A stretch of DNA of 26,218 bases from a virus, in the IMG/VR virus record IMGVR_UViG_3300009151_005621, positions 1-26,218 of that record; one strand, given 5' to 3'. A program made the position numbers and the translations under genes. Shown here piece by piece: positions 3,770-25,686 of the stretch. Below the pieces are notes generated by a model. It made no database searches. It was given only the letters and a program-made list of their open reading frames with translations, and was not told where the DNA came from. Numbering within the stretch: position 1 is the stretch's first letter; every line of letters begins with the position of its first letter.

Positions 3770-3773
3770 TAAC

Positions 3774-8717: not shown

Positions 8718-9436
8718 CAAAAAGTGCAGTAGTAATAATTCCAACAACAGGAGCTGATACTCTTATAGAAACAATTGAGAGTGTTGCCAAACAAACATAT
8801 GATAATGTTACTGCCCTTATTGTGGTTGATGGAAAACAATTTGCATCTAAAGTAAGAAAAATGCTTTTAGGTAAAGGTTTTAATATTCCTTTGCGAGTTG
8901 AATATTTAGATGAAAATGTTGGAGCTAATGGTTTTTATGGGCATAGAATCTATGCAGCTTATTCTCATTTAGTTAATGAAGATTATATTTTCTTTCTTGA
9001 TCAAGATAATTGGTTTGAACCAAATCATATTAAAACTATGATTGATGAATTGGAATCAACTAAATCTGACTGGGTTTATAGCTTGCGTAATATTTATGAT
9101 AAAGATGGAAATTTTATTTATCAAGATAATTGCGAAAGTTTAGGTAAATGGGAAGCATGGACAAATTGTTATCACATAGATACTAATTGTTATTGTTTTA
9201 CTAATAAAGTTGCTGTGGTAATTGCTGGTGCTTGGCATGGAGGCTGGGGTCAAGATAGAGTAGTATTTCAAGCATTAAAACAATATTTTCCTAATTTTTC
9301 TTGTTCTGGTTATTATACTCTTGATTATAGGCTTGCCGGTAATTCTGGGTCGGTAACTAAAGAATTTTTTGAACAAGGTAACAAAATAATTAAATCTAAA
9401 TATAAAACTTATCCATGGAGAAAAAATGATAATTGA
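8714..9436 (+). CDS. Family 2 (GT-A fold) glycosyltransferase
   Basis: First gene of the glycan cluster, starting at ATGA overlapping the gp41 stop. GT2 layout: beta-strand VVIIPTTG (6-13), then TLIETIESVAKQTYDNVTAL, LIVVDG (35-40), and a metal/nucleotide-binding DxD-like DQD at residues 96-98 within YIFFLDQDNWFEP. 240 residues, a single catalytic domain with no membrane segment, so probably cytoplasmic. Donor and acceptor cannot be read from sequence. Translational coupling to the helicase gene ties it to the same early transcript. Confidence 0.9.
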   Translation: MTKSAVVIIPTTGADTLIETIESVAKQTYDNVTALIVVDGKQFASKVRKMLLGKGFNIPLRVEYLDENVGANGFYGHRIYAAYSHLVNEDYIFFLDQDNWFEPNHIKTMIDELESTKSDWVYSLRNIYDKDGNFIYQDNCESLGKWEAWTNCYHIDTNCYCFTNKVAVVIAGAWHGGWGQDRVVFQALKQYFPNFSCSGYYTLDYRLAGNSGSVTKEFFEQGNKIIKSKYKTYPWRKNDN

Positions 9437-9770
9437 TAAATTGTGGGGTTATGAAAATATTATCGTTAATACTGATTTATATTGCGGTAAGATTATTCAT
9501 GTAAATGCAGGTAAACGAGGTTCGTTTCATTATCACAAAATTAAAGATGAAACATTTTATTTGTTGAAAGGTAAAGTTCAAATAAATTATTCTCTTACTG
9601 ATGAATTTTATACTGATACTATTATTCTAAATGAAGGTGATAAATTTTATTTGCCTCCTGGGTTAAGGCATCAAATTGTTGGAATCGAGGATTCTGATAT
9701 AATTGAATTTTCAACAAAAGATATGGATGAAGATTCATATAGAGTTATTCGTAGCGAGGATTTTTTATGA
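9426..9770 (+). CDS. Cupin-fold protein, related to sugar-phosphate isomerase cupins
   Basis: 114 residues forming one cupin barrel. Motif 1 is visible as G-x5-HxHxxKDETF (His35, His37, Glu42), followed by YLLKGK; motif 2 is EGDKFYLPPGLRHQIVG (His82). The opening KLWGYENIIVNTDLYCGKI is like the cupin domain of type II mannose-6-phosphate isomerases and small capsule-locus cupins. A metal-dependent sugar-nucleotide or sugar-phosphate step is likely but the reaction is not determined. It overlaps the preceding gene by 11 bases and the next by 4. Confidence 0.88.
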   Translation: MIIDKLWGYENIIVNTDLYCGKIIHVNAGKRGSFHYHKIKDETFYLLKGKVQINYSLTDEFYTDTIILNEGDKFYLPPGLRHQIVGIEDSDIIEFSTKDMDEDSYRVIRSEDFL

Positions 9771-10429
9771 ATGTAGAAATTAATACATTATATTGGGATA
9801 ATGGGGCATATTTAATTGATTCGCATAAAAAGGTTACTGAACATTTAAAAATTCCTGTAAATTATCATAATATTGATGGGGCTAATCACGGTTTATGGAT
9901 GGATTATGTTTTAGAAAATTCTAAATCCGATATTGTTGGTTTTTTAGATAATGATTGTGTTCCATTAAATATGGAAATTATAAATTCTTCAATTGAATAT
10001 GTTACAAAATATAGAAGTTTTATTGGAGTTGCTCAATCATCAAATCATATATATCCATATAATCATATTTTTGCTGCTCCTAGTTTTTTCTTTATTTCTA
10101 AAAAATGTTGGGTTGATTTAGGTAAACCTTCATTTGCCGAGAATAAAAGATCTGATATAGCTGAAGAAGTTTCTTATGTAGCTGAAGAAAACAAAGTTCC
10201 GTATAAAGCAATTTATCCAACTTATTATGAACGAAGTCCTCTTGGTGGCGTTTGGCGATTAAGTAATTATGGTAATTTTGGTATTGGAACTCTTTTTGGT
10301 GATTCTATATATCATCTATATCAAGGAAGATACCAACAAAATGCAGATTTATTTAAACAACGCTGTGATGATATAATAAATGGCACTTTTTCAACTAATG
10401 GTAGTATGACTCCTTCAGTTTCTTTTTAA
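9767..10429 (+). CDS. Probable GT-A glycosyltransferase
   Basis: 220 residues. The segment DIVGFLDNDCVPLN (residues 55-68) carries a DxD motif (Asp61, Asp63) after a hydrophobic strand, the hallmark of GT-A enzymes. The N-terminal part (LYWDNGAYLIDSHKKVTEHL) lacks the classic GT2 opening, so it belongs to a divergent family. The C-terminal half has aromatic acceptor-type segments (HIYPYNHIFAAPSFFFISKK, GIGTLFGDSIYHLYQG). It starts by an ATGA overlap with the cupin gene. Confidence 0.78.
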   Translation: MNVEINTLYWDNGAYLIDSHKKVTEHLKIPVNYHNIDGANHGLWMDYVLENSKSDIVGFLDNDCVPLNMEIINSSIEYVTKYRSFIGVAQSSNHIYPYNHIFAAPSFFFISKKCWVDLGKPSFAENKRSDIAEEVSYVAEENKVPYKAIYPTYYERSPLGGVWRLSNYGNFGIGTLFGDSIYHLYQGRYQQNADLFKQRCDDIINGTFSTNGSMTPSVSF

Positions 10430-10439
10430 TGAATATTTT

Positions 10440-11165
10440 ATGAAAATTATAAATGTAACGCCAACAAATTTTGGTGGAAAATTTCGGTGCGGTGATGTTT
10501 TAGGTGCTTGTAATGTATTAGAAGCACTTAGAGTTACTGAAAATAATCAATTAATAAAATTTTATGTCCCAGATGAAAGTATTTTTCCTTCTGATTACGT
10601 TTTAAAATTTAAAAATTTTGTACAAAAACATACAGATTATTTTTCTGATGTTCCAGGAGAACATCAATTAGATGTTAATAATTTAAATATATGGGATTAC
10701 CGTTCAAATATTCCCGATAGAGTTAAAGTTGATAATTCTGCATATATTAAAGAAAAGAAAATTTGTATTTTTCCATTATTTGATGCTGCATATAATTTTT
10801 ATCGTAATTGGGATATTATACTATTAACAGGTTTGATTGATTATTATTCTGAAAACTTTTCTGATTATAGGTTAATTATATGCGCATCATTAAATATTAA
10901 ACATATAATTGATACAGTAGATTTAAAAAGTTTTGAAATTAGTTATGACTATGATGAAAATTTAAATCATGTTATGACTTGCGAATATTATATCGGTGGA
11001 GATACTGGAATGACGCATTTAGCTGGAGCATTAACTAATCCATCAAAAAATATATACTATTATTCTTGTAGGGAATTACTTCAAGTTTTTCCCCTTCATT
11101 GGAAATCTCATGGAGAAATACGAAGTTATAGTGAGTATGGATTTACATTAAAAATTGATCATTAA
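10440..11165 (+). CDS. GT9/heptosyltransferase-like (GT-B) glycosyltransferase
   Basis: 241 residues. The N-terminus GGKFRCGDVLGACNVLEALR is like the start of ADP-heptose transferases. The C-terminal domain has YYIGGDTGMTHLAGALTNP (residues 183-201), the DTGxxHLAxAL nucleotide-sugar-binding motif of GT9. It is shorter than cellular heptosyltransferases (about 320-350), so both Rossmann lobes are trimmed. There is no clear ribosome site in the 10-base gap, so reinitiation from the preceding gene is likely. Substrate unknown. Confidence 0.78.
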   Translation: MKIINVTPTNFGGKFRCGDVLGACNVLEALRVTENNQLIKFYVPDESIFPSDYVLKFKNFVQKHTDYFSDVPGEHQLDVNNLNIWDYRSNIPDRVKVDNSAYIKEKKICIFPLFDAAYNFYRNWDIILLTGLIDYYSENFSDYRLIICASLNIKHIIDTVDLKSFEISYDYDENLNHVMTCEYYIGGDTGMTHLAGALTNPSKNIYYYSCRELLQVFPLHWKSHGEIRSYSEYGFTLKIDH

Positions 11166-11175
11166 GCGAGGTTTT

Positions 11176-11874
11176 ATGAAATTATATGCCCAGCATGGAA
11201 GTAGTAATATGGGCGATTTTTTAAATTGCCTTCCTGTATTATCTGGAATATATAAACAATATGGAAAGATTGATTTAGTAATTCAGGATAGTATGGAGAA
11301 ATTTAATGGGTTTATAGATTTATTATCATATCAAGATATATTTAATACCGTTACATTTCAAAAAGAAACTCCGGAATTATCTGATTATATATGGTTTAAT
11401 AGCTGGGTTAATGGAGTTGAATATGATGGTATTAACCCGATTGAAACTACTAGGTATGAAAAATATATAAAACATGTTTCTGGAATTCAATTTAATATTG
11501 ATTCTGAATTTGAATTAAAAATACCTCATTTAAATATTGGTAAATTTGATACGGTTATTGGCGATAGATGTTCAAAAACTACTGTTGATACAAGTAGACC
11601 CTCAGAAGTATTAAAAAATTCTGGAAAATTTAATGATTCATTTTATTTGGATTTTTCTAGAAGTTGTATATATAATGCAAACGTTATTAAACAATCTAAT
11701 AAATTTATTACTATGTTTACAGGTATTAGCATATTAGCTGATTTAATGAACGTTCCTCTTGAAGTTTATTATACAAAAGAATTAGATGGTTGGCAAAATC
11801 AACCTATACAATATTCGTATATGAAACATTTTTATGCGAATAGAAAATCTACGTTAAAATTATTAGATGAGTGA
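11176..11874 (+). CDS. Probable GT-B type glycosyltransferase, heptosyltransferase-like N-terminus
   Basis: The ATG at 11176 is preferred over an in-frame start at 11155 because GCGAGG (11166-11171) precedes it. 232 residues opening KLYAQHGSSNMGDFLNCLPV, the glycine/asparagine loop typical of GT9-like proteins, which find a nucleotide sugar between two Rossmann domains. A later segment KFITMFTGISILADLMNVPL replaces the DTGxxHLA motif with FTGISILAD, so it is divergent and could be catalytically altered. It follows another GT9-like gene, suggesting duplication or paired transfer steps. Confidence 0.65.
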   Translation: MKLYAQHGSSNMGDFLNCLPVLSGIYKQYGKIDLVIQDSMEKFNGFIDLLSYQDIFNTVTFQKETPELSDYIWFNSWVNGVEYDGINPIETTRYEKYIKHVSGIQFNIDSEFELKIPHLNIGKFDTVIGDRCSKTTVDTSRPSEVLKNSGKFNDSFYLDFSRSCIYNANVIKQSNKFITMFTGISILADLMNVPLEVYYTKELDGWQNQPIQYSYMKHFYANRKSTLKLLDE

Positions 11875-11876
11875 TT

Positions 11877-12374
11877 ATGGACTTAATTGAATATAAAGGA
11901 AAAATATATCCTAAATTTCAAACTATAGGGTATGCTTCTCAGTTTGCTATCCCTTTTGCCAAACATTTTTGTATCGGTGAAGGTTTTGATATTGGGTGTA
12001 ATCGCATTGAATGGGCTTTTCCTGGATCCATTCCTATTGATTTAAATTTTAATGATGGGTGGGATGCATATAATTTACCAAAAGATTCCGTTGATTATAT
12101 TTACTCTAGTCATTGTTTAGAGCATTTACCTGATTGGGTAGATGCTTTAGATTATTGGAAAACTAAATTAAAAGTTGGTGGAATATTATTTTTGTATTTG
12201 CCTGATTATGCACAAACATATTGGAGACCTTGGAATAATTTTAAACATAAACATATTTTTACTCCTGAAATAATTGAAGATTATTTATCTGACAGAGGAT
12301 ATATTAATATATTTAAATCTGAGCGCGATTTAAATAATTCTTTTATGGTTGTTGGGGAAAAAAGTAATGATTGA
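11877..12374 (+). CDS. SAM-dependent methyltransferase (class I)
   Basis: 165 residues from ATG 11877; an in-frame GTG at 11871 is possible but adds only two residues. The AdoMet-binding loop is FDIGCNRIEW (37-46), followed by PIDLN, then SSHCLEHLPDW (77-87), the methyltransferase type 11 region after motif III, and GGILFLYLPD. In a glycan cluster it most likely methylates a sugar hydroxyl or a sugar nucleotide. It is shorter than most type 11 enzymes (about 200-250), with a compact C-terminus. It overlaps the next gene by 8 bases. Confidence 0.85.
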   Translation: MDLIEYKGKIYPKFQTIGYASQFAIPFAKHFCIGEGFDIGCNRIEWAFPGSIPIDLNFNDGWDAYNLPKDSVDYIYSSHCLEHLPDWVDALDYWKTKLKVGGILFLYLPDYAQTYWRPWNNFKHKHIFTPEIIEDYLSDRGYINIFKSERDLNNSFMVVGEKSND

Positions 12375-13743
12375 GTTAATTATATTTGACTTAGATGGAG
12401 TTTTGGTCGAATCTAAAGATTGGCATTATACAGCTTTAAATTCTGCATTATTATCAATTGATCCAAAATACGTTATATCTTATGATGAACATTTATGTAC
12501 TTATGATGGATTAACTACAACAAAAAAACTAGAATTACTATCAATTAATAAAGGATTAGACAAAATACATTTTAATAAAATATGGAAAGATAAACAATAT
12601 TCAACATTTAATATTTTGCGGCAAATAGAAGTTAATTCACATTTAATTAATATTTTTTTAACATTAAAACAAAAAAATATTAAAATTGCAGTAGCTACAA
12701 ATTCAATACGAGAATCCGTTAAATTATGTTTATTAAAATTGGGTATCTTAGAATATGTTGATTATTACATTAGTAATGAAGATGTTACTAAACCAAAACC
12801 ATTTCCTGAGATGTATTGGCGTTGTATGACTGCTTTAAATGTTATTCCGAAAAATACAATAATTGTTGAGGATAGTCATATCGGTAGAAAAGGAGCTCTT
12901 GATTCCGGAGCTAATCTATTAGCAATTGAAAACCCAGAAGATTTATCATTAGCTAAAATCGAAATGAAAATAAATGAAATTAATTCTGTGTCAAAAGAAA
13001 ACACTATTCCATGGATTGACAAAAAACTAAATGTATTAATTCCAATGGCTGGGCTTGGTTCTAGGTTTGCTCAAAAAGGATATACTTTTCCAAAACCATT
13101 AATTGATGTTAATGGTCGCCCTATGATTCAAGTTGTTGTTGAAAATTTAAATATTGATGCTAATTATATTTTTGTTGTTCAACAAGAACATTTAGAAAAA
13201 TATAATATTAAACACCTATTAAATTTAATTAAGCCAAATTCAAAAATAATTATTATTGATAGTTTAACTGAAGGTGCAGCTTGCACAACACTACTGGCTG
13301 AGGAATTTATAGATAATGATGCTCCATTATTAATTGCTAACTCTGATCAATATATTGAGTGGAATTCAAATGAAACTATGTATTCTTTTTCTAATAATAA
13401 TATTGATGGCGGAATGCTTGTATTTAATGCGGTTCACCCTAAATGGAGTTTTGCTAAACTTGGTAAGGATGGATTTGTTGAACAAGTTGCTGAAAAAGAT
13501 CCAATTAGCGATATAGCTAGTGTTGGAGTTTATTATTGGAATAAAGGTTCTGATTACGTTAAATATGCTAAACAAATGATTGAAAAGAATATTAGAGTTA
13601 ATAATGAATTTTATGTTTGTCCTGTAATTAATGAAGCTATTTCTGATGGTAAGAAATTTAAAGTTAGTTATGTTCAGGAAATGTGGGGTATTGGAACTCC
13701 AGAAGATTTAGATGCATTTTTAAAATTGAAAAAGGTTAATTAA
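12367..13743 (+). CDS. Bifunctional HAD phosphatase-nucleotidyltransferase fusion
   Basis: The ATG at 12367 follows GGGGAAAAAAG. 458 residues in two domains. Domain 1 (1 to about 205) is a HAD phosphatase of the beta-phosphoglucomutase type: FDLDGVLVES (7-16, Asp8 and Asp10), VATNS (109-113), TKPKPFPEMY (141-150), IIVEDSHIGRKGA (165-177). Domain 2 (about 220-458) is a sugar-1-phosphate nucleotidyltransferase: LIPMAGLGSRF (224-234), FPKPLIDVNGRPMI (241-254), and the metal-binding NSDQY (325-329). The pairing suggests it makes an NDP-activated sugar or polyol and removes a phosphate from a precursor; the actual substrate is unknown. Overlaps the methyltransferase gene. Confidence 0.9.
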   Translation: MIELIIFDLDGVLVESKDWHYTALNSALLSIDPKYVISYDEHLCTYDGLTTTKKLELLSINKGLDKIHFNKIWKDKQYSTFNILRQIEVNSHLINIFLTLKQKNIKIAVATNSIRESVKLCLLKLGILEYVDYYISNEDVTKPKPFPEMYWRCMTALNVIPKNTIIVEDSHIGRKGALDSGANLLAIENPEDLSLAKIEMKINEINSVSKENTIPWIDKKLNVLIPMAGLGSRFAQKGYTFPKPLIDVNGRPMIQVVVENLNIDANYIFVVQQEHLEKYNIKHLLNLIKPNSKIIIIDSLTEGAACTTLLAEEFIDNDAPLLIANSDQYIEWNSNETMYSFSNNNIDGGMLVFNAVHPKWSFAKLGKDGFVEQVAEKDPISDIASVGVYYWNKGSDYVKYAKQMIEKNIRVNNEFYVCPVINEAISDGKKFKVSYVQEMWGIGTPEDLDAFLKLKKVN

Positions 13744-13744
13744 T

Positions 13745-14542
13745 ATGGATGATATTACTTTAGTATCAATGTTTTATGATATAGGTAGAGAACAATGGAA
13801 CCTTTACCCTAGAAAAGTTGATGAATATATTTCTGCTTTTGAGAAATTTTTAGATTACAATTATACAATGATTGTATTTATCGATGATAGATATATCGAT
13901 AAATTGCAAGAAAAAGTTATTGGATCTAAAATTACCCTTATTCCTATTAATCAACATTGGGTTTTGTCTAATTTATGGTCTTGGTCTAGGTTGGATAAAG
14001 AAAAAGAAATAATGTCTAGTTTGAAATATCAATCGCTAGTTACTCATAGAATAGAACGAAACTATCCGGAAAACGTTAATCCATATTATACAATATTAAC
14101 TCACAGTAAAATAGATGTTGTTAATTATGCTATAGATAATAATTTAATTGACAGTAGTTATGTTGCTTGGGTTGATTTTGGGTATTTTCATGGAAAAACT
14201 TCTGAAGAATTTTTACCTACTGGACCTTTAGATTTAAATAAGTTTGATTTGGATAAAGTTAATATTTGTTTAATTAATCCCATTACCGATAGAGATCAAG
14301 ATATAATTTATAGTTTACAGCAAGCTCCAGAGAAAATTGGAGCCTATTTCTTTTTAGCTAGTAAGCAAAAAATGTATGAATTTCAGCAATTATGTCATAA
14401 ATGGTTATTAACTTTTCAAGAAAAAAATATTGCTGATGATGAACAAGCAATCTGGCTTCAGTGTTATTTCGAGAATTTGGATTTGTTTAAAACTCATATA
14501 TTTTATAAATGGCATCAAGCATTAAGAGAGTTTTCTAAATGA
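13745..14542 (+). CDS. HtrL/YibB (WlaTC)-family putative glycosyltransferase
   Basis: 265 residues. The opening TLVSMFYDIGREQWNLYPRK, followed by NYTMIVFIDDRY, fits the HtrL_YibB family, found in LPS and lipooligosaccharide loci of Escherichia and Campylobacter. Later YVAWVDFGYFHGK (139-151) fits the family's central aspartate motif. Family members are thought to transfer sugars but few have been tested. It starts 1 base after the HAD fusion gene and ends overlapping the next gene. Family call is good; activity inferred. Confidence 0.82.
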   Translation: MDDITLVSMFYDIGREQWNLYPRKVDEYISAFEKFLDYNYTMIVFIDDRYIDKLQEKVIGSKITLIPINQHWVLSNLWSWSRLDKEKEIMSSLKYQSLVTHRIERNYPENVNPYYTILTHSKIDVVNYAIDNNLIDSSYVAWVDFGYFHGKTSEEFLPTGPLDLNKFDLDKVNICLINPITDRDQDIIYSLQQAPEKIGAYFFLASKQKMYEFQQLCHKWLLTFQEKNIADDEQAIWLQCYFENLDLFKTHIFYKWHQALREFSK

Positions 14543-15252
14543 ATATAGCTATTCTATTAACTGGAAATATACGAACTTTAGATTTATGTAAACAAAATAC
14601 TTTAAATGCATTTAAATTCTTATCTCCTGATTATTTTGTTTCTACATATAATGCTTCGCATCAATATCATTATTTGGTAAAAAATGCTATTAACTTTAAC
14701 AACGATTCTATATTAACTGATATACAAATAGAAGAAAAATTTTTAGATTTTTATCCAAAATCTATATTAATTGATGATATTTTGTATGCTAAAAATGTAT
14801 ATGAAACTGAATCTAAAAAGTTTAATAAAAATATGATATTTGATGCTTCATCTCATTTTTTACAATTTTGGAAAATTAAACGCGGATTAGACTTAATACA
14901 GCAATATGAGATTGATAATAATATTTCGTATGACATTATTATAAAAACTAGAACAGATTTAATTTATAAAGATTTATCTTGTATTGATTTCGCAAATATT
15001 AATGAAAAGGTAGTTGTTTGTAATGGTGCAGTAGAACTAAACGATCAAGTTATAATTTCAACAAAACAAAATATGATTAATGTTATAAATTCTATGCTCA
15101 ATGAATTTTATAATTATACTAGTGAATATAGTAAAATAAACCCCCCGCATGGTTTATTAAAATATTCTATTGATAAAAATAACCTTAAACCTGATATTCA
15201 GCCATTATTAGAATATATACAAAGGGAAAATGGAATACGGAGTTATTTATGA
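14539..15252 (+). CDS. Putative glycosyltransferase-like protein, unassigned family
   Basis: 237 residues. The N-terminus MNIAILLTGNIRTLDLC, then PDYFVSTYNAS, and the central DIIIKTRTDLIYKD (132-145; Arg138, Asp140) resemble uncharacterised GT-A-like proteins of capsule loci and large DNA viruses, in which an R-x-D motif takes the place of DxD. The last third is Asn/Ile-rich and helical. It starts by ATGA overlap and ends overlapping the next gene by 4 bases. I do not know the substrate, and the enzymatic role rests mainly on the cluster. Confidence 0.65.
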   Translation: MNIAILLTGNIRTLDLCKQNTLNAFKFLSPDYFVSTYNASHQYHYLVKNAINFNNDSILTDIQIEEKFLDFYPKSILIDDILYAKNVYETESKKFNKNMIFDASSHFLQFWKIKRGLDLIQQYEIDNNISYDIIIKTRTDLIYKDLSCIDFANINEKVVVCNGAVELNDQVIISTKQNMINVINSMLNEFYNYTSEYSKINPPHGLLKYSIDKNNLKPDIQPLLEYIQRENGIRSYL

Positions 15253-15692
15253 AAATAATTTCGCATAGAGGAAATATAACTGGACCAAATTCTTTAACTG
15301 AAAATAGCCCAGAACAAATAAATTTGTGTATTTCAAAAGGATATGATGTTGAAATAGATATTTGGTATATTGATAGCGAATTTTATTTAGGTCACGATAA
15401 ACCTACATATAAAATTCCGTTTTCGTATTTAGTTGAAAGAAAAGAAAAATTATGGATTCATTGTAAAAATCAAGATGCTATATTTAAATTAAATAATATA
15501 GGGTTTAATTATTTCTGGCATCAAGAAGATGACGTTACGTTAACATCTCAGGAATTTATTTGGGCTTATCCAGATAAACATACAAAATATTATAGAAATC
15601 TTGTTATATTGGATTTTTCTAAAAATATTGATTTTGATTTTTATGCTGCTCGTAATGTATATGCTGTTTGTGTTGATTATATAGGAAATTAA
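15249..15692 (+). CDS. Minimal GDPD-like (glycerophosphodiester phosphodiesterase) protein
   Basis: 147 residues. The start IISHRGN (3-9) matches the catalytic His-Arg-Gly motif of GDPD enzymes; ENSPEQINLCISKGYDVEID (18-37) gives the second block with metal ligands Glu35 and Asp37; FYLGHDKPTY (46-55) gives the next His. A full GDPD TIM barrel needs about 230-250 residues, so only the front half is recognisable, with the rest shortened. No signal peptide, unlike secreted GDPDs. It could hydrolyse or transfer a glycerophospho group on a glycan; that is inference. Overlaps the preceding gene by 4 bases and abuts the next. Confidence 0.75.
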   Translation: MKIISHRGNITGPNSLTENSPEQINLCISKGYDVEIDIWYIDSEFYLGHDKPTYKIPFSYLVERKEKLWIHCKNQDAIFKLNNIGFNYFWHQEDDVTLTSQEFIWAYPDKHTKYYRNLVILDFSKNIDFDFYAARNVYAVCVDYIGN

Positions 15693-16496
15693 ATGAAAAA
15701 AGTTATTGTAAGCCACATTTATAATGAAGAATATCTTTTACCATGGTGGTTAAATTATCATAAAAAATATTTTGATCATGGTGTAATTATTGATTATCAT
15801 TCTACTGATAGAAGTAGAGAGATAATTAAAGAAATCTGTCCAACTTGGGAAATACATACATCAAGAAATAAATTATACGACGAATTTAATCTTCAAGAAG
15901 AAGTTTTTGAATACGAAAGTAGGTTTGGGGAAGATTGGTGGAAAGCATGTTTAAACGTTACTGAATTTTTAGTAGGAGATTTTAATTATCTAGATACTAT
16001 TTCTGGAACTTTGGTTATTCCTTGTTTATATTTTATTGATGAACAACAATTAAGAGATTCATCAACATTAAGTTATGATAAACCTTTATGGGATGTAATC
16101 AAGACTGGATTAGATGTTCCATATACAATGGATTTCAGGGGTTCTAGAGCAATACATACACAAAATTTTAGATATCCATCTGGTAGACATTTTCGTAGAT
16201 TAATCACTACAGACAGATTTATGATATTTAATTATGGTTTTGCTCCAATGACAGAAGAATTTTATACAAGAAAATTGCAAGTTCAAAATTTAATTCCTTT
16301 AGAAGAAAGATTGAAACATAATGGAGGAGCGCATACCGATGGACAAAATCCAAATGGATTAACCAGAGAAAGATTTATAGAAATGTATAAAGAATATACT
16401 CCTGTTATTAATCCACACCCAGAAAATTTACGTCAAAGATTTTCTGATTTAAGTTCGGAAATAAATAAATTTTTAAGTTTTTTACCTAGAGGTTAG
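15693..16496 (+). CDS. GT92/GT2_4-like glycosyltransferase
   Basis: 267 residues. The opening VIVSHIYNEEYLLPWWLNYH followed by VIIDYHSTDRSREI is the pattern of the glycosyltransferase 2_4/GT92 group (Asn-Glu after the first strand; D-x2-STD-S as nucleotide/metal site). Later segments GSRAIHTQNFRYPSGRHFRR and NGGAHTDGQNPNG are probable acceptor-site loops. The ATG abuts the previous stop with no gap. Cytoplasmic, no membrane helix. Confidence 0.82.
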   Translation: MKKVIVSHIYNEEYLLPWWLNYHKKYFDHGVIIDYHSTDRSREIIKEICPTWEIHTSRNKLYDEFNLQEEVFEYESRFGEDWWKACLNVTEFLVGDFNYLDTISGTLVIPCLYFIDEQQLRDSSTLSYDKPLWDVIKTGLDVPYTMDFRGSRAIHTQNFRYPSGRHFRRLITTDRFMIFNYGFAPMTEEFYTRKLQVQNLIPLEERLKHNGGAHTDGQNPNGLTRERFIEMYKEYTPVINPHPENLRQRFSDLSSEINKFLSFLPRG

Positions 16497-16499
16497 GAA

Positions 16500-17090
16500 G
16501 TGGAATTTTATAATAAAGTTAGACCAATATTGAATGCAAGAATTCCTGGATTTGATTTAATATTTGATTATCTTCAGCAAGTTGATAATCCATTAATTGT
16601 TGAAACTGGATGCGCTCGTCAAGAAGATAATTATACTGGCGATGGTCAAAGTAGTTTATTATTTGATGAATATATAAACCAATATGGCGGAGATTTTTAT
16701 ACTGTTGATATAGCAGAAGAAAGTATTGCATATTGTAAAAGTAGAATGAAATCAAATAGATCTATAGTTACACAGGAAGATAGTATAACATATTTAAAAG
16801 AATTAAATAAAAAATTATTATCTGAAAATAGAAAAATTGATTTTCTTTATTTAGATAGTTTTGATGCTCCTAGAAATGATCCAGAAATTTTATTTACTAG
16901 CGCAAAACACCATTTATATGAATTAATGACAATTTTACCTTCTTTAAAAGAAGGAGCTTTAATTGGGGTTGATGATAATTGGTATGAGGCTGGAATATTT
17001 GATGGAAAAGGAAAATTTGTTTTTGATTATATGCAATCTATAAAAAATAATCCAATATTAACTGAGTATCAAATTTTTTGGAAATGGTAA
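16500..17090 (+). CDS. SAM-dependent methyltransferase (class I), GTG start
   Basis: 196 residues starting at GTG 16500, with AGAGG (16488-16492) 7 bases upstream; no better ATG is in frame nearby. AdoMet motif I is IVETGCARQ (33-41), motif II ends in DFYTVDI (65-71, Asp70), and IDFLYLDSFDAP gives the metal or catalytic aspartate region of methyltransferase type 24/TylF-like enzymes, which methylate sugar or catechol hydroxyls. GALIGVDDNWYEAG is a further typical block. Second methyltransferase of the cluster, unrelated in detail to that at 11877. Confidence 0.82.
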   Translation: MEFYNKVRPILNARIPGFDLIFDYLQQVDNPLIVETGCARQEDNYTGDGQSSLLFDEYINQYGGDFYTVDIAEESIAYCKSRMKSNRSIVTQEDSITYLKELNKKLLSENRKIDFLYLDSFDAPRNDPEILFTSAKHHLYELMTILPSLKEGALIGVDDNWYEAGIFDGKGKFVFDYMQSIKNNPILTEYQIFWKW

Positions 17091-17093
17091 TAT

Positions 17094-18062
17094 ATGAAAA
17101 TTGCATTTCAATCAAATACCCTATGTCATAGAGGAACTACAACTGCAATTCTTGATTATGCAAAATATAATCAAGAAATTTTAGGTAACGAAAGTATAAT
17201 TGTTTATCCAACAAACGTAGATTTTCCTGGAGTTAGTTCTGATTCATTAACACAAGATGATGTTGTTGAATCAGTTAAAACTAAATTTCCTTTATTTGGT
17301 TATGATTCATTAGAAGAGTTAGATAATATTATAGTTAATAATAATATTGACGCTACTTATTTTATTAAAGGTGGTTTTGATGATGGAATATTAACAACAA
17401 AATCTAAAAATTTAATTCATGCGGTATTTCAAGCTAATCAGCCGCATGGAGATAGATATGCATATATATCTGAATGGTTATCTGAACATATGAGTAATAA
17501 ACAAATTGATTATGTTCCGCATATAGTTAATTTACCAAAAGAAAGAAAAACTAATTTTAGAGAAAAATTAAGAATAGGTGAAGATAAAATTATTATTGGT
17601 AGAATTGGTGGATTACATCAATTAGATATTCCATTTGTATTAGAAACTATTGCTTATTTTGCATATAAAAACCCTAATTACGTTTTTGTATTTGTAAATA
17701 CATTTAAATTTGTTAATTTACCGAATATTATATTTCTTGATCCAATAATTGATATGCAAGAAAAAACTGATTTTATTTTGTCTTGTGATGCAATGCTTCA
17801 TGGTAGAAGCGATGGTGAATCTTTTGGTCTGGCAATTTGCGAGGGTTTATTTCATAATAAACCCGTATTTTGCTTTAATGGTGGAAGAGACAAACACCAT
17901 ATAACTTTATTAAAAAATACTGGATTGTTATACAACAATGCCAATGATTTATATAATATGTTACTTAATATTGTATCTTATAGAGATGAATATTCTAAAT
18001 TAGTGGAAAAATTTAATCCATATACTGTTATGGAAAAATTTAAAAAAGTTTTTCTTGATTAA
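17094..18062 (+). CDS. GT4-like (GT-B) glycosyltransferase
   Basis: 322 residues. The C-terminal Rossmann lobe carries HGRSDGESFGLAICEGL (236-252), the donor-binding E-x7-E motif of GT4 enzymes (Glu242, Glu250), followed by HNKPVFCFNGG. The interdomain region IIIGRIGGLHQLDIP (167-180) matches the usual G-R-x strand of this fold. The N-terminal lobe starts KIAFQSNTLCHRGTTTAILD. Last gene of the first glycan transcription unit: a separate promoter follows at 18069. Confidence 0.86.
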   Translation: MKIAFQSNTLCHRGTTTAILDYAKYNQEILGNESIIVYPTNVDFPGVSSDSLTQDDVVESVKTKFPLFGYDSLEELDNIIVNNNIDATYFIKGGFDDGILTTKSKNLIHAVFQANQPHGDRYAYISEWLSEHMSNKQIDYVPHIVNLPKERKTNFREKLRIGEDKIIIGRIGGLHQLDIPFVLETIAYFAYKNPNYVFVFVNTFKFVNLPNIIFLDPIIDMQEKTDFILSCDAMLHGRSDGESFGLAICEGLFHNKPVFCFNGGRDKHHITLLKNTGLLYNNANDLYNMLLNIVSYRDEYSKLVEKFNPYTVMEKFKKVFLD

Positions 18063-18068
18063 AAGTGC

Positions 18069-18097
18069 TTGACAATATAGATGCTTTATATTATAAT
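18069..18097 (+). promoter_or_regulatory. Consensus sigma70 promoter for the epimerase gene
   Basis: TTGACA (18069-18074) and TATAAT (18092-18097), both perfect, with a 17-base spacer. The transcript should begin near 18104. It shares the local form gcTTGACAa with the promoter at 526-554. It overlaps a palindrome (18077-18108). Confidence 0.9.
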
Positions 18098-18108
18098 AAG
18101 GCATCTAT
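18077..18108 (+). repeat. Perfect inverted repeat covering the spacer and -10 box
   Basis: ATAGATGCTTTA (18077-18088) pairs with TAAGGCATCTAT (18097-18108) over 12 positions (one T-G) around an 8-base centre. It spans from within the promoter spacer to just past the expected start site. It has no T-run after it, so it is not an ordinary terminator; it could be an operator, or a hairpin in read-through RNA. Confidence 0.75.
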
Positions 18109-18126
18109 AACATAAACGGTGAAATT

Positions 18127-19038
18127 ATGAAAGTATTGGTTACAGGTGGGTGCGGGTTTATTGGAAGTCATTTAATTGATACATTAGTTGACTCTGGTTA
18201 TACTGTCGTTAATGTTGATGATTTATCAGCTGATAACGATCAATTTTATTTTAATGACAGTAAAAATGTTATCAATCATCATTTCGATGTTTGTGATACG
18301 AAAAAATTAACTACAATTAGTAGAGGTTGCGAGTTTATTTTTCATCTAGCAGCAGAATCGCGTTTGGGTTCATCAATTGCTAATCCAAGAAAAGCAATTG
18401 ATTCAAATATTAAAGGTGTTGTTTCAGTATTGGAAGCAGCAAAAGCAAATAAAATTAAAGGTATTGTTTTTTCTTCTACTTCTTCAATATATGGATTAAA
18501 TACTAATTTTCCGTTAAAAGAAACTGAACGAGAAGATTGTTTAAATGCATATGCATCAACTAAATACGCAGCAGAATTATTTTTGAGAAATTATTATGAA
18601 ATCTACGGAATTAAATCAGTTATTCTTCGCTATTTTAATGTTTATGGCGAACGTTCTCCCAAATCTGGTCAATATGCGTTAGTATTGGGTATTTTTGAAA
18701 AACTATTAAAAGATGGTAAACCGTTAACGGTTACTGGTGATGGGACTCAAGAGCGAGATTTTATTCATGTAAAAGATATTGCTCAAGCTAATATTGAATG
18801 TATAAATTATTTTGATACAAATCCAGATATGTGGAAAGCTCAAGTATTTAATATTGGATATGGAGAAACAAAAACTATTAATGAAATTGCTAATACTTTA
18901 TCAGATAGTATTGTTTATATTAAAAAACCCGCTGGTGAGGCATTAAATAATTTATCAGATAATACTAAATTTAAATTAGCAACAAATTGGGTTCCAACTA
19001 TAAATGTAATTGACTGGATTAAAGAAAAACTATTATAA
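18127..19038 (+). CDS. NAD-dependent sugar epimerase/dehydratase (extended SDR, GalE-like)
   Basis: 303 residues. Rossmann motif GGCGFIG (7-13) for NAD binding, FHLAAESRL (72-80), catalytic Ser in SSTSSIYG (116-123) and YASTK (142-146). ALVLGIFEKLLKDGKPLTV, GDGTQERDFIHVKD and NIGYGE are typical of nucleotide-sugar 4-epimerases and dehydratases. It probably supplies a UDP- or GDP-sugar to the glycosyltransferases upstream. It is the only gene between its own sigma70 promoter and the late promoter at 19039. There is no strong ribosome site (cggtgaaattATG). Confidence 0.92.
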   Translation: MKVLVTGGCGFIGSHLIDTLVDSGYTVVNVDDLSADNDQFYFNDSKNVINHHFDVCDTKKLTTISRGCEFIFHLAAESRLGSSIANPRKAIDSNIKGVVSVLEAAKANKIKGIVFSSTSSIYGLNTNFPLKETEREDCLNAYASTKYAAELFLRNYYEIYGIKSVILRYFNVYGERSPKSGQYALVLGIFEKLLKDGKPLTVTGDGTQERDFIHVKDIAQANIECINYFDTNPDMWKAQVFNIGYGETKTINEIANTLSDSIVYIKKPAGEALNNLSDNTKFKLATNWVPTINVIDWIKEKLL

Positions 19039-19046
19039 TATAAATA
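19039..19046 (+). promoter_or_regulatory. T4-type late promoter TATAAATA
   Basis: The exact octamer TATAAATA that T4-like phages use with the gp55 sigma factor lies immediately after the epimerase stop and 38 bases before the ATG at 19084. No -35 element is needed for such promoters. It lies at the point where gene content changes from glycan genes to virion-type genes, which supports it. An eight-base AT word in AT-rich DNA can occur by chance. Confidence 0.75.
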
Positions 19047-19083: not shown

Positions 19084-20256
19084 ATGCTAAGTTTTAAAGA
19101 TTTTCTTGTTGAGAACGAGGAAGAAGGTGCTAAATTAAAGCACATTAAACATCCAGAAGATAGAGTTTTTGAAGGTTCAAATGGATATGCTCATGCCAAG
19201 GGGGCATTACATCATGCTCATGATGCAATTAAATCTGGAGAACATAGCACTAACCTTACTATGAAATACGATGGATCTCCTTCCATCGTATATGGTCATC
19301 ATCCAGAGAATGGTAAATTCTTTGTAGCCAGTAAATCTGCATTTAATAAAAATCCAAAAATAAATTATACTCACGAAGATATTGAGCAAAACCATGGCCA
19401 TGCTCCTGGATTAGTTGAGAAGTTAAAAGATTCGTTGGATCATTTACATAAAATTACTCCAAAAAAGGGTGTATATCAAGGCGATTTAATGTTTAGTGGA
19501 GATGATAAGAAACATAATGATAATGGATCCGTATCATTTACACCAAATACAATTAAATATACTGCTCATGGCGAAGAAGCAGATAAAGTTAAAAAAGCAA
19601 AATTAGGTGTTGTTACTCATACGCAGTATCATGGAGATACTTTATCTTCTATGAAAGCTGATCCTCATCCAGATTTACATAATTTTAAATCTCATTCAGA
19701 TGTTTGGAGTAAAACTCCAGAGCACGATACTAGAAATGTTCATTACAGTGAATCTGATCAAGCTAAATTTCAAAAACATATGGATGCTGCCGAGAAAATT
19801 CATAAAGCGCATAAACATACAATGTATGATGCTACAGCACCTCATGGTGGTGACAGCGGTCATTTAGCAACATATATTAATCATACGGTTAGAACTGGAG
19901 AAAAACCAACTGCAGAAGGATTGCAGCATCATATAGCAGGTAAATATGAAAAACAAATTGATAAGTTAAAAAGCGATGCAGGTAAAGCTAGAAAACATAC
20001 CGAATTAACTGGTCATCTATCTCATATTGCTGGTAATTCTGATCATTATAATCATCTATTAAAAATGCATGGGCATTTACAGTCGGCTAAAGATATTTTA
20101 ACCAAAACATTAAATCAACATGAAGGTGGATTAGAACACCATATTGGTGACAAAAGAACTAATCCGGAAGGATTTGTTATTCATCATAATGGAGAACCAA
20201 CTAAACTTGTTAATAGAGAAGAATTTTCTAAAGCTAATTTGTTAAAGGTACGTTAA
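19084..20256 (+). CDS. Ligase-superfamily-like nucleotidyltransferase with capsid-targeting-like N-terminus
   Basis: 390 residues, very His-rich. Covalent nucleotidyltransferase signatures in order: MKYDGSPS (60-67, KxDG with Lys61 as the presumed AMP-accepting residue), GVYQGDLMFS (129-138, motif III-like), PEGFVIHHNG (361-370, motif IV-like EGFV) and TKLVNREEF (373-381, motif V-like Lys). I take it to be a phage protein of the DUF6267 type. The N-terminus MLSFKDFLVE|NEEE resembles T4 internal-protein capsid-targeting sequences (MKTYQEFIAE) cut by the gp21 protease after x-x-E. Late promoter upstream; AGAGAGG before the ATG. Ligase activity and packaging are inferred. Confidence 0.8.
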   Translation: MLSFKDFLVENEEEGAKLKHIKHPEDRVFEGSNGYAHAKGALHHAHDAIKSGEHSTNLTMKYDGSPSIVYGHHPENGKFFVASKSAFNKNPKINYTHEDIEQNHGHAPGLVEKLKDSLDHLHKITPKKGVYQGDLMFSGDDKKHNDNGSVSFTPNTIKYTAHGEEADKVKKAKLGVVTHTQYHGDTLSSMKADPHPDLHNFKSHSDVWSKTPEHDTRNVHYSESDQAKFQKHMDAAEKIHKAHKHTMYDATAPHGGDSGHLATYINHTVRTGEKPTAEGLQHHIAGKYEKQIDKLKSDAGKARKHTELTGHLSHIAGNSDHYNHLLKMHGHLQSAKDILTKTLNQHEGGLEHHIGDKRTNPEGFVIHHNGEPTKLVNREEFSKANLLKVR

Positions 20257-20879
20257 TGAGCACTAAAAATCCTGTTGTTACTGCTTTTGGTAGAATGAAT
20301 CCACCTACAACTGGGCACTTACAGTTAATTAATTCTGTTCGTTCTACTGCAGAAAAAGAAAATGCTGATCATAATATTATCGCTTCTGGTAGTCATGATT
20401 CAAAGAAAAATCCATTAAGCTCAGAACAAAAATTAAAACATTTATCTAGATATTCTCCTGGAACTAATTTTTCTGTAGCCGATTCTAAATCTCCAACATT
20501 ATTACATCATTTATCCAAATTACATGATGCTGGTCATGATCATTTAATTTATGTTGCTGGTAGTGATCGCACAAAAGGTATGGAAGAATTAATACATAAA
20601 TATAATGGAGTACCTTCTAAACATGGATATTATAATTTTAAAAAGATAGAAGTACGTTCCGCTGGACATAGAGATCCAAATGCAGAAGGAACTGCTGGAA
20701 TGTCGGGAACTAAAATGAGAGAATTTGCTAAAAACAATGATTTCCATTCATTTAGACAAGGAGTTCCATCTCATGTTTCAGATGATCATGCAAAAGAATT
20801 GATGAGTGATGTTAAATCTGGTATGAATGTTCATGAATCATATATTCGTGGATTTTTAAACAAAATAAGACTATTTTAA
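20256..20879 (+). CDS. NMNAT/cytidylyltransferase-like adenylyltransferase (HIGH superfamily)
   Basis: 207 residues. AFGRMNPPTTGHLQLI (10-25) holds the TxGH version of the HxGH nucleotide-binding motif; VAGSDR (100-105) and MSGTKMREFA (149-158, the ISSTxxR-type block) complete the fold. Such proteins are annotated in T4-like cyanophages as cytidyl- or nicotinamide-nucleotide adenylyltransferases; the specific substrate is not clear here. The ATG overlaps the preceding stop, so it is coupled to the ligase-like gene. Rich in His, Ser and Lys like its neighbours. Confidence 0.86.
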   Translation: MSTKNPVVTAFGRMNPPTTGHLQLINSVRSTAEKENADHNIIASGSHDSKKNPLSSEQKLKHLSRYSPGTNFSVADSKSPTLLHHLSKLHDAGHDHLIYVAGSDRTKGMEELIHKYNGVPSKHGYYNFKKIEVRSAGHRDPNAEGTAGMSGTKMREFAKNNDFHSFRQGVPSHVSDDHAKELMSDVKSGMNVHESYIRGFLNKIRLF

Positions 20880-22875: not shown

Positions 22876-23259
22876 ATGGATGAATTGACTGAAGATAGTT
22901 TTTTATTATTTGCTGCAAAACATTATTATTCTATACATTATTCTGTAGTTGAATTTAATTCTGATTTAAAACGAATAATTTACATTAAACGATTGTTAAA
23001 GAAATATAAAAAATCTGGTGAATTGGCTGAGCGGTTAATTTTAAATCATTTAATATTATTATATAATGTTTTTGAGCCAACTATAGCAGTAAATAAAATG
23101 TTGTTTTTTAAATTAGATGATAATTGCTATAGTGCATTAAAAACGTTTTTAGTTTATTTAAATAGAATGCCTACAGAAATTTCATATGATGGAAATAAAT
23201 TAATTTCCTCTGATATTCCTTTAGATATGGAAATCGCAAAAATATTAAGAGAATTATGA
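22876..23259 (+). CDS. Conserved T4-like hypothetical protein (DUF7207-like)
   Basis: 127 residues. The pattern FLLFAAKHYYS, LKRIIYIKRLLKKYKKSGEL, AERLILNHLILLYNVFEP and ALKTFLVYLNRMP matches, from memory, a small all-helical protein conserved in T4-like phages of marine bacteria with no known function. There is no clear ribosome site before the ATG, so translation may be coupled to the gene ending 16 bases upstream. Its stop overlaps the next start (ATGA). Confidence 0.78.
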   Translation: MDELTEDSFLLFAAKHYYSIHYSVVEFNSDLKRIIYIKRLLKKYKKSGELAERLILNHLILLYNVFEPTIAVNKMLFFKLDDNCYSALKTFLVYLNRMPTEISYDGNKLISSDIPLDMEIAKILREL

Positions 23260-23432
23260 AAACATTTAAACAATTTTTAGAAGAAGATGGGGAAGGTGCT
23301 CCTGCTGCGGTTAGTACCACTCCAACTAATACTACAAATGGTATAGCAGGACTTAAAGATCCTGGAGTAAAAATGCCAAGAAAAAAACAATCTCCAGTTA
23401 TGACTGGAACTCCAATAACAAGGGCAGGATAA
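23256..23432 (+). CDS. 58-residue protein with capsid-targeting-like N-terminus
   Basis: ATG at 23256 overlaps the preceding stop; ends TAA 23430-23432, 1 base before the next ATG. The N-terminus MKTFKQFLEE is close to the T4 capsid-targeting sequence (MKTYQEFIAE) and to the start of the ligase-like protein at 19084 (MLSFKDFLVE). After a possible gp21-type cut behind Glu9 or Glu10, the remainder is a short Ala/Thr/Pro-rich, basic peptide (MPRKKQSP). It could be an internal capsid peptide or core component. The gene is real by tight packing; function is inferred. Confidence 0.7.
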   Translation: MKTFKQFLEEDGEGAPAAVSTTPTNTTNGIAGLKDPGVKMPRKKQSPVMTGTPITRAG

Positions 23433-23433
23433 A

Positions 23434-23958
23434 ATGGATAATAAATATAAAAATAAATTAACTTCTATTATTGAAGATTGCGGTTTTGATAGAACACGTA
23501 AAGCTAATCAAAAAGAAATAGAACAAGCTTTATTTGAAGCTACAAAACCTGGATATCCGCCTGAAGAAGCTCAAGATCCAAGTTCAAAAGAAGGAATTTC
23601 CAATGCAATTGCTTCTGAATTTTTTGCTCGTTGTAGAGCTCTAGCTACAACTACTCATTTTGCTCATTTAAGTACAGATTCTTTTTCGGAACATTCTGCT
23701 CTAACAACTTTTTATGTAGAAATTGTTGAAACTGTAGATAAATTCTGTGAAGCTTATATTGGATTATATGGTAAATTTATTAGTTTGCCTCCAATTGCTG
23801 CTGAAATGAAAATCGCAGTTGATGCTATTATAGAATTTAGGGATTGGATTTCTAAAAATAGAGGATTAATTACTGATGATACTTCTATGCAAAATATAAT
23901 TGACGAATCTGTTGAATTATGCAATACTACAATTTATAAATTACAAAAATTGAAATAA
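23434..23958 (+). CDS. Helical-bundle phage protein (DUF5856-like)
   Basis: 174 residues. The core LATTTHFAHLSTDSFSEHSA, LTTFYVEIVETVDKFCEAYI and GLYGKF has the His/Glu spacing of a phage family with a Dps/ferritin-like four-helix layout (DUF5856, from memory). The N-terminal 40 residues are polar and variable. GGCAGGATAAA precedes the ATG. Whether the His and Glu residues bind metal is not known. Part of the late block of small genes. Confidence 0.75.
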   Translation: MDNKYKNKLTSIIEDCGFDRTRKANQKEIEQALFEATKPGYPPEEAQDPSSKEGISNAIASEFFARCRALATTTHFAHLSTDSFSEHSALTTFYVEIVETVDKFCEAYIGLYGKFISLPPIAAEMKIAVDAIIEFRDWISKNRGLITDDTSMQNIIDESVELCNTTIYKLQKLK

Positions 23959-23970
23959 CTGGTATTTGTT

Positions 23971-24162
23971 ATGATGACTGTCAAAGAGGCAACCCCAATG
24001 ATCCATTATAATAATTATAACGATAAAGAAATATTATCAAAAAGTAATATGGCAAAAAGACTTAACTTATTGCGATCTTTAGAAAATTATTCTCATAAAC
24101 TAGATAAATTACTTGAACAAACATCAAAAATAGAAGATATTTCTCTAAAGGTGGGCAGATAA
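23971..24162 (+). CDS. Small helical protein of unknown function
   Basis: 63 residues starting at ATG 23971; an ATG directly follows, and other in-frame starts exist, so the start is uncertain. Basic and helical in the second half (LNLLRSLENYSHKLDKLLEQ), a possible short coiled coil. The last codons overlap the next ATG (TAATG), a sign of coupling. Probably works with the coiled-coil membrane protein that follows, judged by context only. Confidence 0.6.
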   Translation: MMTVKEATPMIHYNNYNDKEILSKSNMAKRLNLLRSLENYSHKLDKLLEQTSKIEDISLKVGR

Positions 24163-24620
24163 TGGCAGATAATTCAACGTTGCATGATGTAAAAGTCGAA
24201 ACGTTATCGGAATTAAAAGTTGAAGTTGCAGTCTTAAAACAAGAAGTCGGATTTATTAATAGGCTTTTTAGTAGAATCGAAGACGTAATTGATAAAATCG
24301 ATACTCAACATGCAGCAGTATTAGATAAAACTACGAAAATAGAATATAACCTTCTTAATACTAAAGATGAATTAGAAGATTTATATAAAATATTAGAAGA
24401 CTCTGAGAAAAATATTTCAAGTAGAATTAATGCTATTGAGAAGTTATTAACAGAGGAAATTAATTCTATGAATAAAATTTTAACTGATAGAGTTGATAAA
24501 AATGAAGCCAAGACTGTAGACCTATTACAATACAAATGGTTATTGTGGGGCGGCGGTGTAGTTGTTTTATGGATATTTTCAAATATTGATATGCTCAAAA
24601 AATTATTTGTAATAAAATAA
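24162..24620 (+). CDS. Coiled-coil protein with C-terminal membrane anchor
   Basis: 152 residues. Residues about 15-115 are an extended heptad-like coiled coil (LKVEVAVLKQEVGFINRLFS, then DELEDLYKILEDSEKNISSR). One membrane segment follows at 125-142 (KWLLWGGGVVVLWIFSNI) and a short basic tail. AAGGTGG precedes the ATG. The layout, a long soluble helix tethered by a C-terminal helix, is seen in several small phage membrane proteins; whether it serves lysis, membrane-bound assembly or exclusion cannot be told. Last gene before the terminator at 24653. Confidence 0.78.
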   Translation: MADNSTLHDVKVETLSELKVEVAVLKQEVGFINRLFSRIEDVIDKIDTQHAAVLDKTTKIEYNLLNTKDELEDLYKILEDSEKNISSRINAIEKLLTEEINSMNKILTDRVDKNEAKTVDLLQYKWLLWGGGVVVLWIFSNIDMLKKLFVIK

Positions 24621-24684: not shown

Positions 24685-25686
24685 ATGAGCATTTGGATAG
24701 ATAGAAAATACATTTTAATGTTATCACCTAAGTTGGAACTCTTTAAACAAAAGAATACCAACTTGTACACCATGCGTTGCCCATATTGCGGCGACTCACA
24801 AAAAATGAAATCAAAAACTCGTGGATTCGTTTATGCAAAAAACGATAATTATTTCTACACGTGTTTTAATTGCGATAAAGGAACAACTCTTAGATCTTTG
24901 CTTGGTTATCTAGATCCTTATCTAGAACAAGAATATATCATGGAAAATTTCCAGGAAAAATTTACTGGAAAGAAAACTAATTCTATTGATAAACCTGCAA
25001 TTCCAAAATTTAAAATTCAAGATAAAAAAATAGATTTACCTACTATTGCTGATTTAGACGACGATCATATTGCTAAAAAGTATATCTTAGATCGCAAAAT
25101 ACCAGAAAAATATCTTAAATATCTATTTTTTACCGATGATTTTAAAGCTTTTGTTGAATCCGTTTCTGATAAAAAACTTGATCAAACTGGTCCAAGGGTA
25201 ATCATTCCATTTTATTCTAGATCTGGTGATTTAGTTGCATTTCAGGGAAGAGCTCTTGATAGTTATTCCATGAGATATATAACAGTAAAGATTGACAGGG
25301 AACAAGAAAAGATTTTTGGATTGGATAAAGTTGATCCAATGAAACCAATAATGGTATGTGAGGGTCCATTTGATTCTTTATTCCTTCCTAATGCGATCGC
25401 AACTGCAGACTCAAATTTGTCCGCTGCAGCTAATGTGTTTGATAAGAGTAAGTTGATACTCATTCCGGATTGCGAGCCTAGAAACGCCAATATCGTTAAA
25501 AATATCGGGAAGTTTATTAAGAATGGGTTCTCTGTTTGTTTATTACCAGAATCGATTGGAGTTAAGGATATTAATGATGCAATAAAAAATGGCTTGACAC
25601 AGGAGGAATTATTAGTTATAATAAGTAATAACACCTTCTCTGGGTTACGAGCTGAACTGGAATACTTAAATTGGAAGAAAATATGA
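24685..25686 (+). CDS. 61: gp61 DNA primase
   Basis: Makes RNA primers at the fork with gp41. Zinc-binding cysteines at 32/35 (RCPYCGD) and 60/63 (CFNC) as in T4 gp61. RVIIPFYSRSGDLVAFQGRA (171-190) is the conserved primase core. The TOPRIM domain follows, with MVCEGPFDSLF (223-233, Glu226) and LIPDCEPRN (259-267, Asp262 and Glu264). 333 residues against 342 in T4. The start gives SIWIDRKY, matching the T4 N-terminus. The ATG lies only 3 bases after the terminator T-run with no good ribosome site, so its leader is very short (about 25 bases) and initiation may be weak. Confidence 0.95.
   Translation: MSIWIDRKYILMLSPKLELFKQKNTNLYTMRCPYCGDSQKMKSKTRGFVYAKNDNYFYTCFNCDKGTTLRSLLGYLDPYLEQEYIMENFQEKFTGKKTNSIDKPAIPKFKIQDKKIDLPTIADLDDDHIAKKYILDRKIPEKYLKYLFFTDDFKAFVESVSDKKLDQTGPRVIIPFYSRSGDLVAFQGRALDSYSMRYITVKIDREQEKIFGLDKVDPMKPIMVCEGPFDSLFLPNAIATADSNLSAAANVFDKSKLILIPDCEPRNANIVKNIGKFIKNGFSVCLLPESIGVKDINDAIKNGLTQEELLVIISNNTFSGLRAELEYLNWKKI

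Follow-up and report, generated by a model that had tools for sequence, protein, structure and literature searches.

The 58-residue protein encoded at positions 23256 to 23432 (+ strand) of the phage fragment studied here appears, with slightly better than even confidence, to be a peptide that is targeted to the prohead, cleaved by the gp21 protease and docked in the shell as a mimic of the N-fist of the major capsid protein gp23. The fragment, hereafter the window, is a whole virus record (G000), linear and 26,218 bases long. The sequence-only reading had treated the protein as one of two unrelated cargoes sharing a leader. Our comparisons suggest that it overlooked something: far from being a random cargo, the protein corresponds to T4 gp61.1 in its position and layout, and it mimics the N-terminus that the gp23 of its clade has when mature. 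For T4-superfamily phages as a whole we propose, a little short of even confidence, that they encode a separate, head-targeted and protease-released peptide that mimics the N-terminus of their own mature gp23 and evolves in step with it, a "spare N-fist" that would fill or control docking sites in the shell and would have been overlooked in T4 as gp61.1. Should this hold, a conserved component that copies the docking arm of the capsid protein has been missed in one of the most thoroughly studied pathways of virus assembly, and the idea is directly testable in T4.

The window carries T4-type replication genes (DNA polymerase, UvsX, a DnaB-type helicase and primase). The gp23 and gp21 genes of this phage lie outside the 26,218-base fragment; the 58-residue protein was compared with the gp23 of the sister contigs G001 and G002. 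Around the gene, the order on the + strand is a DUF7207 gene (22876 to 23259; PF23837, E 3.4e-36) whose stop codon overlaps the start of the 58-residue gene (ATGA), the 58-residue gene itself, a DUF5856 protein (23434 to 23958; PF19174, E 4.4e-18), a 63-residue protein, a 152-residue protein (24162 to 24620) and the gp61 DNA primase (24685 to 25686; phrog_47, E 1.4e-69). By eye, the 152-residue protein has a coiled-coil look and a C-terminal hydrophobic segment; its position before primase is shared with Syn9, DLP6 and phiM12. The ORF, the family alignment and the comparisons below describe the 58-residue protein as a putative gp61.1-family member in three parts, all on the + strand: the leader MKTFKQFLEE (23256 to 23285), a stretch at residues 23-36, PTNTTNGIAGLKDP (23322 to 23363), which resembles the gp23 mature N-terminus GTPTNTTGGISNFDP of G001 and G002, and a basic C-terminal tail starting GVKMPRKKQSPV (23364 to 23429).

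Two other regions of the window were observed alongside. The DNA polymerase gene (1679-5724) is split into two ORFs (1679-3769 and 4789-5724), both matched by phrog_262, with a 344-residue ORF between the halves; by eye this has the look of a split intein into which an endonuclease gene has been inserted. Between the helicase and the leader block lie some 10 kb of genes for sugars and glycans (8714-19038), among them a HAD hydrolase fused to a nucleotidyltransferase-like part, a nucleotide-sugar epimerase and, by eye, glycosyltransferase-like ORFs.

The second leader protein of the window, 390 residues long (19084 to 20256, + strand), is a DUF6267 protein (PF19782, E 2.4e-99) and predicted packaged cargo. 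Its leader MLSFKDFLVE (19084 to 19113, + strand) continues with N, that of the 58-residue protein with D, and both have the form M-x-x-F-x-x-F-L-x-E, which confirms the shared FKxFLxE start noticed from the letters; a start-codon scan finds exactly these two leaders in the window. The two mature parts have no family match in common, and a Pfam-type family search with the 58-residue protein gave no match, in agreement with the earlier view that the two proteins are unrelated. Within the 58-residue family, residues 1-9 are identical in all 12 complete rows of the alignment, a 13th row without the start being left out of this count. The likeness to T4 internal proteins holds as well, IPII and IPIII beginning MKTYQEFIAE in the T4 record. 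According to a review on the assembly of the T4 head (PMC9026906), residues 4 and 7 of IPIII govern targeting, residues 8 and 10 govern processing, and gp21 cuts after L/I-x-E. Both window leaders carry aromatic residues at positions 4 and 7 of this capsid-targeting sequence (F4, F7), together with L8 and E10 in the predicted gp21 cleavage motif.

To measure enrichment we counted the motif M-x-x-[FY]-x-x-[FYW]-[LIVM]-x-E at gene starts in eight phage genomes and two sister contigs, with its frequency inside proteins as the expectation. The results show 14 starts against 0.40 expected, not all of them independent because the two sister contigs are closely related; the greedy gene set overlooked at least one start in G002 and at least one in S-WAM1. 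The sister contig G001 (126 kb) alone has four leader starts against 0.019 expected, on mature proteins without a family in common. Searched across IMG/VR as a DNA pattern with ATG, the exact leader MKTFK[QE]F.. matches at least 120 stretches, compared with three when an Ala codon replaces the ATG. These two contrasts rule out a chance or generic leader. Over 17 records the DNA pattern recovers the leaders found in the clade of the window; its T4 matches are precisely ipII, ipIII and gene 61.1. A backward control pattern gives two matches, both in one record. Some forward matches are not genes; one at 70741 in G001, for example, meets a stop.

The IMG/VR matches listed comprise 80 readable loci with 87 leader proteins, which fall into 50 clusters once the leader is removed. 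Among the 50 cluster representatives Pfam finds 18 families, each in a single member, including three ADP-ribosyltransferase (ART) types, SAM lyase, zeta toxin/AAA_33, glucosaminidase, a lytic transglycosylase-type DPBB, cytidylyltransferase and zinc protease. The largest cluster (20 of the 87 listed leader proteins) resembles the SAM lyase ORF6 of S-CREM2. The ten-residue leader can serve as a readable barcode for proteins that may be packaged, such as ARTs, SAM lyase, nucleotidyltransferases and cell-wall enzymes, in genomes of uncultured phages, where virion proteomics is impossible.

The gp21 protease that the earlier reading proposed to locate is present in the sister contigs G001-G003 (PF03420, E 1e-29 to 2.4e-29), outside the window fragment, and in seven of the 11 records searched; in G001 and G002 it adjoins gp20, gp22 and gp23. 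The enrichment and the protease support a capsid-targeting role of the leader well, and in the window's phage such a role is probable. Published virion proteomics of relatives, the other check proposed, gives a divided answer. In S-CREM2, three CDS begin with the DNA pattern (the SAM lyase ORF6, ORF136 and the cytidylyltransferase ORF154) and all three are among 52 virion proteins, or two of two by the strict motif, as ORF136 has F at position 8; a fourth pattern match lies inside NrdA. The authors of the S-CREM2 paper consider that such virion proteins might be co-purified contaminants. In S-SZBM1, the 30 virion proteins include neither of the two CDS that begin with the pattern (_191 and _192) but do include the cytidylyltransferase _140, whose leader is one residue shorter; a further match to the pattern is internal to a CDS.

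The expectation of more cargo elsewhere in the genome was borne out by the search for N-termini, at least in the sister contigs: G001 adds a 566-residue protein beginning MLRFKSFLTEA and a 289-residue ART-like protein beginning MKTFKQFIFES, and G002 carries two tandem ART-like copies. The 289-residue protein matches ADPrib_exo_Tox with E 4.8e-4, and one of the tandem G002 copies does so with 7.2e-5. The three ART-like proteins reach 20.0, 17.8 and 22.6 bits, below the Pfam cut-off of 23.4. The 289-residue protein, in which S-S-S and E-x-E motifs are seen by eye, is a probable ADP-ribosyltransferase; it has no match among the phage records. G001 has one copy (L026, 4391-5260); the leaders of the tandem G002 genes (L032, 604-2344) are nearly identical, and a KPKEYE-ISNSHG stretch that follows the leader is repeated. 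A profile search of the PDB gave no relatives at E 1 for either the DUF6267 or the ART-like protein. A K-x-D-G stretch gives DUF6267 a possible resemblance to a ligase.

DUF6267 proteins bear a leader in the divergent relatives DLP6 (MMKFTQFLAE) and phage C48C1 (MMLDFKNFITE), with a variant in Melnitz, and are without it in Syn9, S-WAM1, S-PM2, P-SSM2 and S-SZBM1. The cytidylyltransferase bears the leader instead in Syn9, P-SSM2 and S-CREM2, with variant spacing in S-SZBM1, while the cytidylyltransferase-like protein of the window (20256 to 20879, + strand) is without it. The leader thus sits on DUF6267 in the window (19084-20879) and on the nearby cytidylyltransferase elsewhere, as if one packaged partner suffices. 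We also observed the leader on the virion-detected SAM lyase ORF6 of S-CREM2 (L213; PF23780, E 2.3e-19), and a 14-kb contig on which four leader proteins, unrelated to one another, lie near each other (L247, 6505-9422, - strand), an apparent island of packaged cargo. Both the DUF6267 protein and the sister contig's ART-like protein would be ordinary packaged, perhaps injected, cargo with the same leader.

That the two window genes belong to one late block, as the sequence-only reading assumed, is plausible at most. The T4-type late-promoter octamer TATAAATA stands upstream of the block, 38 bp before the 390-residue gene (19039 to 19046), and is its sole + strand copy in the window; the octamer is not enriched overall, so its placement is suggestive and late promoters were set aside as proof of late expression.

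T4 gene 61.1 surfaced unsought, alongside ipII and ipIII, when the leader was searched for. Located directly upstream of primase gene 61, it encodes 54 residues in which the leader MKTFKEFIKE is followed by a stretch of Gly, Asn and Thr and a Lys-rich tail. The 58-residue gene (23256) likewise lies upstream of primase (24685) in the gp41-gp61 region, and its protein has the cut motif, the N-fist-like stretch and the basic tail. The order DUF7207, 58-residue-type gene, further genes and primase recurs in Syn9, S-CREM2, S-SZBM1, S-WAM1, P-SSM2 and phiM12; in Syn9 the locus reads gp189 (the DUF7207 position), gp190, gp191 and primase. Searched against proteins of the phage records, T4 gp61.1 included, the 58-residue protein gave no match at E 10; orthology with gp61.1 therefore rests on position and layout. 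Based on these, the 58-residue protein is probably a positional ortholog that works like gp61.1. The mimics differ between clades because their gp23s differ.

Matches of the T4 gp61.1 type occur in 1386 phage records. Members without the leader and with another N-terminal domain are found in RB43, CC2, Minot, PC-Liy1, phiM12 and DLP6, and a strict L/I-x-E directly before the mimic is missing in RB43, PC-Liy1, HTVC008M and Syn9. gp61.1 appears in a table of PMC3468402. In our literature search, neither mimicry of gp23 by gp61.1 nor the presence of the leader in marine phages was described in any paper. Public records name some gp61.1-type proteins "major capsid protein", "major head protein" or "head morphogenesis", and one such annotation gives E 2.8e-5 to T4 gp23; the likeness is therefore already on record without interpretation, and the labels "major capsid protein" and "major head protein" are misleading name transfers.

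Cleavage of T4 gp23 falls after ...SFLTE, with AEIGGDHGYNATNIAAGQTSGAVTQIGP next, and T4 gp61.1 reads ...EFIKE DMVAGDSGGNPENISIGTTSGAVVNKGP; G001 gp23 reads TLME GTPTNTTGGISNFDP, and the 58-residue protein contains TPTNTTNGIAGLKDP. With T4 gp23 as query, the gp61.1 genes of four of five T4-type phages (CC2, E26, Minot and RB43) are matched with E 5.6e-6 to 8.6e-5 through gp23 residues 62-107, and that of PC-Liy1 is not matched. We then ranked every ORF of ten genomes or contigs by its local score to the phage's own N-fist. The gp61.1-type gene came best after gp23 itself in five (T4, 69 vs 39; Syn9, 98 vs 38; phiM12, 48 vs 37; G001, 43 vs 30; G002, 43 vs 32) and second in HTVC008M and P-SSM2 (a tie), and no gp61.1-type gene was among the top six in DLP6, S-WAM1 and RHph_I1_18. 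No internal protein came near gp61.1 in the T4 ranking. Between ORF160 of S-CREM2 and the gp23 of that phage, 18 of 24 residues are identical, a score reached by none of 2000 shuffles. A 54-residue leader protein at another locus (L232, 7821-7982, - strand) has a C-terminal half, KYDPLLGAKMFRRK, with likeness to both the N-fist and the N-arm of gp23.

To characterize the match further, we paired each mimic with the gp23 of its own phage. In a first test of 12 pairs, the own score was reached by at most four of 2000 shuffles in 11, and by 91 of 2000 in DLP6. Among nine non-T4 phages, seven mimics rank their own gp23 first (DLP6 third, S-SZBM1 fourth), and the own pairing was reached in none of 50,000 permutations (one of 50,000 without S-SZBM1). 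In six T4-type phages the own pairing is no better than chance (7842 of 20,000), since their gp23s are nearly alike. Profile comparison with hhalign gives 98.6% for T4 mimic and T4 gp23 and 86.9% for marine mimic and marine gp23, as opposed to 1.0% for T4-type mimic with marine gp23 and 0.1% for the other crossing. For several marine phages the mimic had been selected by eye or by its position ahead of the pairing test, and the unbiased part of this evidence is therefore the whole-genome ORF ranking. In five phages, the identical residues share the same codon at only 29 of 72 positions, which indicates that the likeness is kept at the protein level and disfavours recent gene conversion from gp23. 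Shared ancestry can be the source of some of the own-gp23 matching.

These observations fit a role in head assembly. The N-fist comprises residues 66-91 and is disordered in five portal-facing subunits, according to PMC7136217; PMC9958956 describes the gp23* N-fist as binding four subunits and the disordered N-terminal regions as becoming ordered upon expansion. The first ten residues of the 58-residue protein would act as a capsid-targeting sequence that brings it to the prohead core, a step which in family members with another N-terminal domain that domain would perform instead of the leader. The gp21 protease would then cut after L8-x-E10 and release a 48-residue peptide made of a copy of the gp23 stretch that gp21 exposes and the basic tail. 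The free mimic could dock at gp23* N-fist sites or compete for them, perhaps at places left without an N-fist, such as vertices, and so stabilise or time the maturation of the shell, while the basic tail may face DNA. One family member, S-CREM2 ORF160, is present in virions with seven unique peptides and 13.1% coverage (PMC10665884, Table 3); the positional ortholog _134 of S-SZBM1 is not in the list of 30 virion proteins.

Other explanations of the 58-residue protein have to be weighed. It might be a small cargo, packaged by its leader, cut, injected and acting in the host like T4 IPI-III, with the gp23 likeness a by-product of both being gp21 substrates. The same leader is found on 50 unrelated mature parts among the matches listed, and T4 Ip1-3 are described as injected inhibitors of restriction enzymes in PMC12373910. 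However, joint cleavage accounts only for L-x-E and not for the 24 to 37 residues that the stronger cases align around this motif and further downstream, the match to each phage's own gp23 is left unexplained, and the internal proteins fall far below gp61.1 in the T4 ranking; we consider this reading unlikely. Rather improbable is that the peptide misleads host sensors of major capsid proteins, or tunes gp21 as a competing substrate. Bacterial immunity that senses capsids does exist (PMC11312562), and the T4 mimic takes in the cleavage region, the alignment starting at residue 2. On the other hand, the family occurs in phages with many different hosts, which points to a structural need, and Lit/Gol, the best-known case of capsid sensing, uses the stretch just after the mimicked one, which counts against a decoy.

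The gene position suggests a further explanation, namely that the gene is kept beside primase for action with gp61 and gp41 and that its gp23 likeness is a coincidence of low complexity. The position upstream of primase is conserved in T4-type and marine phages, and T4 61.1 sits in a replication cluster. Nevertheless, in most pairs none of 2000 shuffles reached the alignment score, composition would not lead one to expect phage-specific matching, and the S-CREM2 member is found in virions, so that we give this explanation little credit. Least credible is a shared N-terminus by chance or as a generic amphipathic start: the leader is only ten residues long and an AT-rich genome favours F and K, yet the excess at gene starts and the IMG/VR control given above exclude a chance origin.

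The gp23 N-fist mimic that we favour can be compared with several known components of T4. In concordance with T4 gp61.1, the 58-residue protein has the same leader type, a gp23 N-fist-like stretch, a basic, Lys-rich tail and a place upstream of primase, although gp61.1 is directly beside primase in T4 and three genes lie between in the window. The gp23 N-fist itself (T4 residues 66-91) is the stretch exposed by gp21, and the 58-residue protein imitates it for its clade (PTNTT..GI..DP), but as a free peptide from a separate gene without the capsid fold. The capsid-targeting sequences of T4 IPI, IPII and IPIII share with the window's leaders their length of ten residues, the aromatic positions 4 and 7 and a site for cutting, I/L-x-E, at 8-10; as opposed to T4, the leader of the window's clade sits on a DUF6267 protein, an ART-like protein, the 566-residue protein and the gp61.1-type peptide, all of them candidates for packaging. 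Finally, the 289-residue leader protein of G001 recalls T4 Alt, a packaged ADP-ribosyltransferase, through its weak match to ADPrib_exo_Tox, while to the Alt PHROG it is only marginal (E 0.5).
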